A stretch of DNA of 64,000 bases from Bizionia myxarmorum (GTDB taxonomy: Bacteria; Bacteroidota; Bacteroidia; Flavobacteriales; Flavobacteriaceae). The notes beneath the pieces were generated by a model. It saw nothing but the letters and a program-made list of their open reading frames with translations. It had not been told where the DNA came from and ran no database searches. The translations under genes and the position numbers were made by a program. Position 1 is the stretch's first letter, and every line of letters starts with the position of its first letter. The stretch covers positions 1,550,001-1,614,000 of the forward strand of contig NZ_VSKK01000001.1 of assembly GCF_008086205.1 (NCBI RefSeq), in the 5' to 3' direction. This document shows, one piece after another, positions 18,656 to 31,176 of the stretch.

Positions 18656-18676
18656 AAGCCTCCTTTTTGGAGGTTT
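18656..18676 (+). terminator. Intrinsic terminator of prfA
   Basis: CCTCC, loop TTTTT, GGAGG, followed by eight T; it ends only 11 bases before the pyrF start. Confidence 0.7.
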
Positions 18677-18686
18677 TTTTTATAAC

Positions 18687-19508
18687 ATGACAACACAACA
18701 ACTCACCGAACAAATCAAAAAAAAACAATCCTTTTTATGTATTGGATTGGATGTGGATTTAAACAAAATTCCTCAGCATTTATTGCAAGAAGAAGATCCA
18801 ATTTTCGCCTTCAATAAAGCTATTATTGATGCTACGCATCATTTATGTGTTTCCTATAAACCCAATACCGCTTTTTATGAAGCTTATGGTATAAAAGGTT
18901 GGCAAGCGCTTGAGAAAACTATTCAGTACTTAAACGAAAAGCATCCGGATATTTTTACAATTGCTGATGCGAAACGAGGTGATATTGGAAATACAAGCAG
19001 TATGTATGCCAAAGCTTTTTTTGAAGATTTAGCTTTTGATAGCGTTACAGTGGCGCCTTATATGGGAAAAGATTCTGTAGAACCGTTTTTAGCTTTTAAA
19101 AATAAACACACCATTTTATTGGCTTTAACGTCTAATCAAGGTGCTTTCGATTTTCAAACGCAACTCGTGGATGGCCAAGAATTGTATAAACAGGTTTTAG
19201 AAACATCAAAAACCTGGGAGAATTCTGAAAACCTCATGTATGTTGTTGGTGCTACCAAAGCTGAATATTTAGCTGATATTAGAAAAATTGTACCTAAAAG
19301 TTTTTTGCTAGTTCCTGGTGTAGGAGCTCAAGGTGGAAATTTGCAGGAGGTATGTAAATATGGAATGACTAAAAATGTGGGACTACTTATAAATTCCTCA
19401 AGAGGGATTATTTACGCTTCTAACCAAGAAGATTTTGCGCAAGCGGCAGCTCTCAAGGCTGAAGAGATGCAAAAGGAAATGGCAATTATTTTAAATCATG
19501 CACTATAA
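18687..19508 (+). CDS. pyrF: Orotidine-5'-phosphate decarboxylase, type 2
   Basis: 273 residues. It decarboxylates OMP to UMP, the last step of pyrimidine synthesis. The length and the active-site segment [23 protein letters not shown] (Asp-Lys-Asp tetrad) place it in the longer type 2 subfamily. Other landmarks are [31 protein letters not shown] and [10 protein letters not shown] with a final SSRGI phosphate loop. It lies right after the prfA terminator, so it depends on read-through or an unseen promoter. Its last 11 bases overlap the next gene. Confidence 0.95.
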
Positions 19509-28663: not shown

Positions 28664-29107
28664 ATGAGTATTGACGCCTTAAACTGGAAAATATTGAAGT
28701 GTTTGCAACAGCAGGCACGCATGTCCAATGCCGAAATTGGTCGGCAAGTTGGCATCAGTTCGCCAGCTGTTTCTGAACGGATTAAAAAAATGGAAGATTC
28801 GGGTATTATTCAACACTATCATACAACGGTTTCTCCATTTGAAGCTGGTTATCAGTTAAAGGCTTTAATTACCATTCGCGCATTTATGGGAATGTTGAAG
28901 CCGTTTTTGGAGAAAGTTAAAACTTATGATGAGGTTATTAATTGTTACCGCATTACAGGAAATGAGAATATAGTTATGGAGGTTGTTTTAAAAAACCAGA
29001 AACATTTGGAGCTGTTTATTGATCAGCTGATTGTTTATGGCGAAACTAAAACACAAATTATTTTATCTCATGTTGTAAAGCATAATTCGGTTAAGCCTTT
29101 GAAATAA
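28664..29107 (+). CDS. Lrp/AsnC-family transcriptional regulator
   Basis: 147 residues, the normal size. An N-terminal helix-turn-helix (LNWKILKCLQQQARMSNAEIGRQVGISSPAVSERIKKMEDSGII) is followed by a RAM-type effector domain (LKALITIRAFMG, VINCYRITGNENIVMEVVLKNQKHLELFIDQL). Such proteins form octamers and sense amino acids. It ends 15 bases before the convergent MFS gene, which may be its target, though convergent order gives no direct support. No operator could be pointed out. Confidence 0.93.
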   Translation: MSIDALNWKILKCLQQQARMSNAEIGRQVGISSPAVSERIKKMEDSGIIQHYHTTVSPFEAGYQLKALITIRAFMGMLKPFLEKVKTYDEVINCYRITGNENIVMEVVLKNQKHLELFIDQLIVYGETKTQIILSHVVKHNSVKPLK

Positions 29108-29122
29108 AAGTTTTTTTTGATT

Positions 29123-30334
29123 TCAATTAGTAGCTTCGTCCTTCTTCATATAACGTATTAGAAGCCATAAAAATGCCATGCAAATTACAGCTAACAGTGA
29201 CATAATATACCAGGTGTTTTCAAATCCTAAAGCATCGGCCATGTGCATGCCAGCATTATGTCCGAAAATATGCGCTATAGAAAAGGCTATACTATAAAGC
29301 GCCATATATTCGCCTTGATTTCCTTTTTTAGCGCGTTCCATAGCAAAAGCGTTAGAGAACGGAAAGGTTATCATTTCTCCAACGGTCATAAAGAGCATAC
29401 CAATTACTAAAATGCCCATCCAAGGTGTGATATTTAAAACCAAAAAGCTTATTCCTACTAATATGGCGCCAATTATCATAAGAGCTGGTTTGCTATATCG
29501 GGTGCTTTCTAACCATTTTATTAAGGGCATTTCTAAAAGAAAAATAAACGCACCATTTAATCCCAATAAAATTCCAATATCAAGTTCAGATAAATGGTGA
29601 ATCTCTTTATAGTAAATAGGCATCGTAGAAAAGTATTGTAGAAATACGATTCCAAACATAGTCATAGCCGCCAGAAATATGAAGTATGATTTATCTTTAT
29701 AGGCTGACTCTGGGTTCGTATTCACAATATCATCTTGTGTTTTAGCCTTTTTAGGATGCAATACATTCATCAATAATATGGTGGCGAGTATACAGGAAAT
29801 ACCATCAATCCAAAATAATCCTGCATAGCTCATGGTTACAATAATGATACCTCCAATAGCTGGACCAGCAGAAAAACCAAGATTTATGGCTAATCGAATC
29901 AGTGTAACCGAACGTGTTTTGTTTTCTGCCTTACTGTAAGCGCTTAAAGCTACAAACATAGCAGGACGAAACATATCAGCAACTAACATCACTAAAAATA
30001 TACCAAATGAAATACTCGCAAATGTGTGTAAAAACTGCAGGCCAATAAATAAAATTCCGGTACCTAATAAACTCCGGACCATGACTTTATAATAGCCAAT
30101 TTTATCAGTTAATTTTCCGCCAAGCCAAGAACCGCAAACAGAACCTAAACCAAAAGCCGACATAACCCAACCTACTTGACCTAAACTTAAGTTTAAATCG
30201 GTTGTTAGATATAAGGACAAAAATGGAATAACCATAGTGCCAGCACGATTGATTAAGGTAATCAATGCTAGCCACCATATTTCAGGCGACAAGCCGCGAA
30301 AGGTGTTAATATAGCCGAAATATAATTTTTTCAT
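29123..30334 (-). CDS. MFS transporter under leader-peptide attenuation
   Basis: 403 residues with about 12 membrane helices in two halves joined by a loop near LHPKKAKTQDDIVNTNPES. The conserved MFS loop GGKLTDKIGYYKVMVRSLLG is present between helices 2 and 3. The frame can extend to 30391, but those codons lie inside the terminator stem at 30362-30388, so the ATG at 30334 (MKKLYFGYINTFRGLSPEIW) is the start. It is a drug or metabolite exporter by family resemblance; the substrate cannot be read. A promoter, a 26-residue leader ORF and a terminator lie upstream, which argues that its expression is set by translation of the leader. Confidence 0.85.
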   Translation of the reverse strand: MKKLYFGYINTFRGLSPEIWWLALITLINRAGTMVIPFLSLYLTTDLNLSLGQVGWVMSAFGLGSVCGSWLGGKLTDKIGYYKVMVRSLLGTGILFIGLQFLHTFASISFGIFLVMLVADMFRPAMFVALSAYSKAENKTRSVTLIRLAINLGFSAGPAIGGIIIVTMSYAGLFWIDGISCILATILLMNVLHPKKAKTQDDIVNTNPESAYKDKSYFIFLAAMTMFGIVFLQYFSTMPIYYKEIHHLSELDIGILLGLNGAFIFLLEMPLIKWLESTRYSKPALMIIGAILVGISFLVLNITPWMGILVIGMLFMTVGEMITFPFSNAFAMERAKKGNQGEYMALYSIAFSIAHIFGHNAGMHMADALGFENTWYIMSLLAVICMAFLWLLIRYMKKDEATN

Positions 30335-30361
30335 TCCAATGGGTGGGTGTTTTATAAAACC

Positions 30362-30455
30362 AAAAAATCCGACGCAATGGTCGGACTTCAATGTATTCGC
30401 TTTTTTAAAAATTAGTAATCACGCACACAATAGGTCCAACTCATACGAGATGAGT
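30362..30455 (-). promoter_or_regulatory. Attenuator with alternative RNA pairing upstream of the MFS gene
   Basis: On the minus-strand RNA: segment 1 ACUCAU (30455-30450), segment 2 AUGAGUUGGAC (30444-30434), segment 3 GUCCGAC (30386-30380) and segment 4 GUCGGA (30373-30368) followed by six U. Segments 1:2 pair over 6 bp, 2:3 over 7 bp with one G-U, and 3:4 form a terminator of 6 to 9 bp. Segments 1 and 2 are inside the leader ORF and 3 and 4 are after its stop. Stalling early would free segment 2 to pair with 3 and block termination. Confidence 0.65.
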
Positions 30456-30492
30456 AGCGAGGTTTTCTATATAATGTGACTCTAATGTTCAT
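30412..30492 (-). CDS. Leader peptide of the MFS transporter gene
   Basis: A 26-residue frame, ATG to TAA, beginning MNIRVTLYRKPRYSSRMSW and ending TYCVRDY. It starts 22 bases after a TAGATTTG promoter element, the same spacing as other genes in this window. It is rich in Arg (5) and Tyr (4). The Arg-Lys-Pro-Arg at residues 9-12 includes a basic-X-basic motif of the sort on which macrolide-bound ribosomes stall. A ribosome paused there would cover segment 1 of the attenuator. It was too short to be flagged by length and has no known family. Confidence 0.65.
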   Translation of the reverse strand: MNIRVTLYRKPRYSSRMSWTYCVRDY

Positions 30493-30513
30493 GTTTTTAT
30501 AATAATTGCTCAC

Positions 30514-30521
30514 CAAATCTA
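30514..30521 (-). promoter_or_regulatory. Promoter -7 element of the leader-MFS transcript
   Basis: TAGATTTG on the minus strand, 21 bases before the leader ATG at 30492. Confidence 0.6.
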
Positions 30522-30541: not shown

Positions 30542-30549
30542 TACTTTTG
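30542..30549 (+). promoter_or_regulatory. Promoter -7 element of the DUF1684 gene
   Basis: TACTTTTG, 21 bases before the ATG at 30571; divergent from the leader promoter. Confidence 0.6.
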
Positions 30550-30570: not shown

Positions 30571-31176
30571 ATGAAAACGTTACTTGGTTTCCTACTGTTT
30601 TTTTCTATTGTTGGTTGTGCTCAAAAAAAAGAACCACTTTTAGGCGAAACAGATTGGCAGCGTGAGCAAAATGCCGATTTTAAAGATGCGAGCAAATCGC
30701 CATTAAAAGCAAAAGACAGAAAGGTTTTTAAAACATTAGACTTTTTCCCTGTCGATTCTTCATTTATAGTTTCAGCTACTTTAAAAAGAACCCCAGATTC
30801 GGAATGGTTTTTAATGCAAACGACTACAGATCGCGTTTCAAATGAACGAATTTATGGTGTAATTACTTTTGAATTGAAAGGAAAAAATTATGCATTGGCT
30901 ATTTATCAAGGACAAGAGTTGATGAAACAAGAAGGTTTTGAAGACTATTTGTTTCTGCCATTTATTGATAATACCAACGGTGAAACTACTTATGGCGGCG
31001 GCCGTTATTTGGATTTACGTATTCCTGAAAATGATGTGATAATTGTTGATTTCAACAAATCTTACAATCCTTATTGTGCCTACGATGAAAAATATTCCTG
31101 CCCCATTGTGCCACGCGATAATTATGTGGATGTGGAAGTGAAAGCAGGCGTAAAAGCATTTGCTAAAAACGATTAG
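30571..31176 (+). CDS. DUF1684 lipoprotein
   Basis: 201 residues with a lipoprotein signal MKTLLGFLLFFSIVGCAQKK (lipid cysteine at 16). The body has the DUF1684 signature: RKVFKTLDFFPVDSSFIVSATL early, then LAIYQGQELMKQEGFEDYLFLPFIDNTNGETTYGGGRYLDL and DFNKSYNPYCAYDEKYSCPIVPRDN near the end. The family is widespread and its function is unknown. It is transcribed alone from a clear promoter and is convergent with crcB. Confidence 0.9.
   Translation: MKTLLGFLLFFSIVGCAQKKEPLLGETDWQREQNADFKDASKSPLKAKDRKVFKTLDFFPVDSSFIVSATLKRTPDSEWFLMQTTTDRVSNERIYGVITFELKGKNYALAIYQGQELMKQEGFEDYLFLPFIDNTNGETTYGGGRYLDLRIPENDVIIVDFNKSYNPYCAYDEKYSCPIVPRDNYVDVEVKAGVKAFAKND

Follow-up and report, generated by a model that had tools for sequence, protein, structure and literature searches.

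The window analysed here is a 64,000-nucleotide stretch of Bizionia myxarmorum DNA. On its minus strand, a gene for an MFS transporter of 403 aa (positions 29123 to 30334) is preceded, in 5′ to 3′ order, by a promoter box, a short leader open reading frame (ORF), and an intrinsic terminator. An earlier note on this DNA had placed a promoter element, a 26-codon ORF, a terminator, and the MFS start at 30334 on this strand, and all four are present where it put them. The promoter −7 box, TAGATTTG (30514 to 30521, minus strand), matches the flavobacterial TAnnTTTG motif, an assignment based on sequence and conservation. A TAnnTTTG box is located 25 to 32 nt from the start codon in 64 of 74 related leaders (chance expectation, 3%), and transcription would start near 30507. 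A scan for sigma-70 promoters found none at the leader, and a sigma-70-like promoter was dropped in favor of the flavobacterial box.

The MFS protein matches Pfam MFS_1 with an E value of 5.6e-58, and the drug exporter NorA is both its best PDB match (E value, 1e-12) and its nearest solved relative. It scores far below every NCBIfam resistance cut-off, and its plasmid relatives comprise only distant or unannotated MFS genes, which give no clue to the substrate. Drug export is a reasonable guess from these similarities. A DUF1684 gene (30571 to 31176, plus strand) is divergent from the MFS gene, and 70 of 80 relatives have it in their flanks; the back-to-back promoter box TACTTTTG (30542 to 30549, plus strand) probably drives it. 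Many relatives also retain CAAAAGTACAACTT, which lies between the boxes of the two promoters. Downstream, a gene for an Lrp/AsnC-type regulator (28664 to 29107, plus strand) is convergent with the MFS gene with 15 bp between the stops, and the flanking regions of 52 of the 80 relatives contain one as well. It is possible that this protein is a second regulator of the pump. Because the surroundings are conserved alongside the MFS gene, the locus looks vertically inherited.

The leader ORF (30412 to 30492, minus strand) has 26 codons plus the stop and reads MNIRVTLYRKPRYSSRMSWTYCVRDY in translation, with Arg-Lys-Pro-Arg at residues 9 to 12 (R9, K10, P11, and R12), as the earlier note had read it. 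The three pairings proposed there likewise exist on the minus strand. Segment 1 (ACTCAT, 30450 to 30455) pairs with ATGAGT (30439 to 30444) to give pairing 1:2, and segment 2 (GTTGGAC, 30434 to 30440), the 5′ strand of the antiterminator, pairs with segment 3 (GTCCGAC, 30380 to 30386) at −10.7 kcal/mol. Segment 3 is both the antiterminator 3′ strand and the terminator 5′ arm, and pairing 3:4 is the terminator itself (30362 to 30389, minus strand), which consists of a 10-pair stem (30364 to 30389) plus a U tract. Pairing 1:2 makes up the tip of a long hairpin, P1, which folds nearly the whole leader ORF onto itself. The outer strands of P1, identified by folding and by compensatory events in the aligned helix, are ATTAGAGTCAC (30476 to 30486, minus strand) and GTGATTACTAAT (30411 to 30422, minus strand), the latter overlapping the leader stop codon.

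In a scan for a promoter, an upstream ORF, and a terminator ahead of a gene, this pattern occurs once in the whole 64-kb window, and the single-sequence fold of the leader is mildly unusual relative to shuffled sequences (z, −1.6). The anatomy of the leader is real and far above chance, and the deciding evidence is comparative, not the single-sequence fold. Elsewhere in the window, a terminator-like hairpin at 18656 to 18690 (plus strand) lies approximately 30 nt 5′ of a 273-codon ORF. A 16-codon ORF, without a TAnnTTTG box, is located upstream of it, and the hairpin could be the terminator of an upstream gene.

For the comparison we used 80 contigs with an orthologous MFS gene (67 to 88% identity). 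A homologous leader ORF of approximately 20 to 28 codons is located upstream of the MFS gene in nearly all 80 of these flavobacterial genomes. A first, ATG-based selection gave 74 leaders in addition to the window's own. Inspection by eye identified a leader ORF with a GTG start in L050, L064, and L073, an ATG leader ORF in L065 that lay outside the first selection, and an insertion in L057 that displaces the leader further upstream. A covariance model was built from an alignment of 61 leaders, and it matched 193 of 299 sampled Flavobacteriaceae genomes at E ≤ 0.01, the weak matches including chance terminators. Forty matches of ≤85 bits were inspected: 31 immediately precede an MFS orthologue, and nine are chance-like. 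We judge that true leaders are present in approximately 100 of the 299 genomes.

The host genome has one clear copy according to the model. The same leader was not found before other genes, all inspected strong or full-length matches being upstream of MFS orthologues. Close MFS orthologues outside Flavobacteriaceae (52 to 60% identity) are without the leader. Within the family, neither an upstream ORF nor a terminator precedes the MFS gene (48% identical) in L165 and L166 (genomes G127 and G398), where regulation of the gene either differs or has been lost. The leader family therefore appears, on these sequence comparisons, to be found in Flavobacteriaceae only and to be widespread there, in marine members and their relatives.

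The way in which the leader ORF varies is informative. In the 61-leader alignment, which was made with a codon-unaware aligner, all 131 gap runs within the ORF are three (129 runs) or six (two runs) positions long, while past the leader stop codon the runs have lengths of 1, 2, 3, and 4. The start codons are retained as ATG, or as GTG in the three contigs named above. That the inner indels are all multiples of three argues strongly for translation of the leader ORF. Together with the conservation of a promoter box immediately before the leader ORF and terminator, the frame-preserving indels and retained start codons also speak against an ordinary terminator with an ORF that is there by accident, or a translation-independent RNA switch. 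Even though 2:3 and 3:4 can compete thermodynamically without a ribosome, we consider this explanation extremely unlikely.

The frame is kept, but the peptide is not. Over codons 2 to 12, the entropies at codon positions 1, 2, and 3 are 0.90, 1.18, and 1.13, that is, without an excess at the third position. In codon 8, the second base is variable (TAT/TGT, Tyr/Cys) and the third base is fixed, which fits an RNA helix tolerating G-U pairs and does not fit constraint on the peptide. The distant orthologues (MFS proteins 43 to 69% identical) have unrelated leader peptides, for example MKSNTYTQNFSVVRNRKPGEGMY, MTNRYIVLNNTQVCETTSGMPMY, and MNTRQYIRIQQVVTKGHNFGSAVY; conservation of the peptide in relatives, one of the checks that the earlier note had named, thus fails in these members. 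Despite the unrelated peptides, the promoter, the length of the ORF, the terminator, and the complementarity all persist in them. Collectively, the comparison shows leader codons that appear to be under nucleotide constraint, without constraint at the level of amino acids.

This bears directly on the trigger. The earlier note had proposed that a macrolide-bound ribosome stalls at the basic-X-basic motif in Arg-Lys-Pro-Arg (Lys-Pro-Arg, residues 10 to 12), masks segment 1, and thereby allows 2:3 to form. Lys-Pro-Arg does occur in the window's leader, the stall position would, judging from the size of the ribosome footprint, be geometrically suitable in this one species, and mef(E), likewise an MFS gene, has a basic-X-basic leader, MTASMRLR (PMC4335068). 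However, the four closest relatives (MFS proteins 85 to 88% identical) have KPC, KPC, KSH, and KPT at this position, and [KR]x[KR] within residues 2 to 14 is rarer in 97 leaders (11%) than in shuffled peptides (28%). With these frequencies, and with a leader that lacks amino-acid-level constraint, a macrolide-specific arrest is very improbable. Of the earlier proposal, the attenuator with three competing pairings under the control of an ORF is supported, whereas the macrolide stall at Arg-Lys-Pro-Arg is not.

The first half of the leader commonly contains Thr, Lys, Ile, Gln, and Tyr, which leaves a small chance of a peptide or tRNA signal. One form that such a signal might take is arrest by a single drug class (e.g., a lincosamide, pleuromutilin, or phenicol), either through a loose motif such as T-Y-x(1-3)-Q or at the start codon. 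Most leaders, divergent ones among them, have Thr, Tyr, and Gln in the 5′ half, and the vmlR, vga(A), and cplR leaders show start-codon stalling by several drugs (PMC12121999). The position and spacing of these residues shift between leaders, however, and codon 8, variable at position 2 (Tyr/Cys) and fixed at position 3, follows the pattern of an RNA helix; this type of arrest is unlikely.

Another form is a trp-type attenuator that responds to amino-acid starvation, with the MFS protein acting as a transporter of amino acids or metabolites. The leader-peptide attenuators reported for amino-acid operons of Flavobacterium psychrophilum (PMC9723704) and the convergent Lrp/AsnC-family gene next door, which recurs near the MFS gene in 52 of 80 relatives, would be consistent with it. 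However, no single amino acid forms a run or is in surplus in the leaders, as would mark a trp-type leader. Only a near-universal Thr is constant, and it stands among many other residues. Moreover, the MFS protein is nearest to drug exporters, and the starvation attenuator is accordingly rated as distinctly unlikely.

The RNA pairings have been kept to different degrees. The terminator was found after the leader ORF in 74 of 75 leaders by script and in the remaining one (L071) by eye; 97.8% of the alignment cells in its helix are paired, and 12 double compensatory events were counted on the MFS tree compared with 0 in slid controls. The outer helix of P1 (alignment columns 13 to 20 with 78 to 85) has seven double events versus 0 to 2 in slid controls, while the inner P1 helices have zero and are characterized by conserved complementarity alone. 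The antiterminator comprises two helices, 2:3, in which 89% of the cells are paired, and an inner helix, ATATTGT/ACAATAT (78%), the latter extending 2:3 in most relatives. For 2:3, the number of double events on the tree is modest (3 versus 0 to 2 in controls), and because these events are few, the support for this pairing comes mainly from conserved complementarity and a swap test.

In the swap test with 22 divergent leaders, segment 2 paired with its own terminator arm better than with the arms of other leaders, by 2.6 kcal/mol on average, with 17% of the swaps doing as well, and the pairing is also stronger than in codon shuffles (mean z, −2.8). In L158 (genome G079), GGGCGATTGGT stands opposite ACCAATCGCCC, giving, as judged by eye, 11 perfect pairs with a different sequence. 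The earlier note had named covariance of segments 1 to 4 and conservation of 2:3 in relatives as checks. The former is borne out for the terminator, modestly so for 2:3, and not for the inner part of P1; the latter is borne out by the fraction of paired cells, the shuffles, and the swaps. In the RNAalifold consensus, the terminator alone appears, and P1 and 2:3 are missing, presumably because they are mutually exclusive. These comparisons indicate that the terminator, P1, and (less strongly) 2:3 are kept through compensating changes, and the comparative pattern supports a ribosome-controlled transcription attenuator.

Modeling suggests how the competing structures could be used. Before the terminator 3′ arm has been made, P1 is predicted to fold first (median, 24 expected pairs), and the antiterminator is preferred once segment 3 emerges. 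Masking of the first 42 nt yields 2:3 in the model, and with a ribosome covering the RNA up to the stop codon, 2:3 is impossible. In thermodynamic folding without a ribosome, 2:3 often wins (median, 8.8 expected pairs), such that the role of P1 may be a kinetic one. With the complete transcript, the terminator is favored in most relatives even under masking; hence, the decision would have to fall during transcription, as in other attenuators.

We suggest the following sequence of events. Transcription would begin near 30507, and during normal growth the ribosome would traverse the leader as far as the region of the stop codon, covering segment 2 together with the ORF's 3′ half. With segment 2 covered, segment 3 would pair with segment 4, the terminator would form, and the MFS gene would remain untranscribed. 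A ribosome that is stopped or slowed within roughly the first 12 codons would instead open P1 and leave segment 2 free to pair with segment 3, such that the polymerase would continue past the terminator site into the MFS gene. The leader would, in other words, sense the arrival of ribosomes at its end. For a leader that is not translated at all, thermodynamics would predict read-through, while the selected P1 hairpin hints that kinetics could give termination.

On the comparative and modeling evidence, we regard it as highly probable that the MFS gene is under a translation-coupled attenuator. The explanation that best covers the data as a whole, a ribosome-dependent transcription attenuator that senses translation of the leader to its end, is probably correct. 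Since pairing extends along the whole ORF and its peptide can change freely, any of many early codons should do as the stall site, and several classes of inhibitor would be expected to induce. Sensing of general translation inhibition, rather than a specific arrest peptide, is thus somewhat favored, and the pump could respond to many inhibitors of translation, or to a severe shortage of tRNA. That the leader acts throughout the family as a translation-stress sensor, in which frame and RNA pairing are kept, the peptide is free, and any class of ribosome inhibitor induces a core multidrug exporter, is a tentative view to which we give slightly less than an even chance.

Searches of Rfam 15 at gathering and relaxed thresholds gave no credible match to the leader, and searches of the open literature, apart from a list of 64 structured 5′ regions in the F. 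psychrophilum transcriptome, gave no description of it. The leader would thus represent an undescribed family, one that may act like bmrB-bmrCD, mef(E)L, and toiL. In Bacillus subtilis bmrB-bmrCD (PMC4191407), as here, a leader ORF that is translated and has alternative stem-loops precedes a terminator and a transporter gene. Induction of bmrCD needs translation of bmrB, the inducers being chloramphenicol, erythromycin, and lincomycin (PMC4191407). Read-through into this multidrug transporter has been proven experimentally for several 50S-targeting antibiotics, whereas induction of the flavobacterial gene is a prediction. The Bacillota system also differs in having an ABC transporter, a 53-codon leader, and a terminator inside the ORF; a sequence relation between the two is not expected.

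In mef(E)L-mef(E)/mel of Streptococcus (PMC4335068), a short leader ORF and an intrinsic terminator likewise precede an MFS efflux gene. That leader has eight codons (MTASMRLR), a conserved macrolide arrest motif, and a location on mobile elements, whereas the flavobacterial peptide is not conserved and its locus appears vertically inherited. The toiL-topAI system of Escherichia coli (PMC12121999) shares base pairing across the ORF, such that many codons can serve as stall sites. ToiL senses many antibiotics because pairing spans its whole ORF (PMC12121999), and while several antibiotic classes are sensed there, multi-drug sensing by the flavobacterial leader is an expectation. Unlike the flavobacterial leader, toiL acts via a ribosome-binding site and Rho, without an intrinsic terminator, and controls a toxin-antitoxin pair. 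Closer in phylogeny, the F. psychrophilum attenuators combine a leader peptide with attenuation in the same family but are reported before biosynthetic operons (PMC9723704). The tetQ leader of Bacteroides (review, PMC5418344) is a drug-resistance attenuator from the same phylum; it differs in acting by translational attenuation of a gene for ribosomal protection (PMC5418344).

Antibiotic-sensing leaders have hardly been described so far in Flavobacteriaceae, a large and ecologically important family, for which the model offers a testable mechanism of inducible intrinsic drug export. If it is correct, a sensor shared across the family would induce a core, vertically inherited exporter in bacteria without ordinary Shine-Dalgarno initiation. 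The approximately 100 natural variants also make it possible to ask what in a leader has to be kept (frame and pairing) and what can be given up (peptide).

Two further observations concern the variants. In L025, L026, L028, L032, L035, L051, L053, and L057, which belong to several genera, an extra 60 to 100 nt or more are present between the terminator and the MFS start. These stretches, in which short palindromes occur (GTTGCGTAGCAAC and GTCTGAGCGCAGTCGAAGAC are examples), look like small mobile palindromic repeats. In L042, upstream of 3001, inspection by eye suggests that the leader ORF has been lost and that the promoter and terminator have been retained, and this contig constitutes a natural test of how the terminator behaves without a leader ORF.
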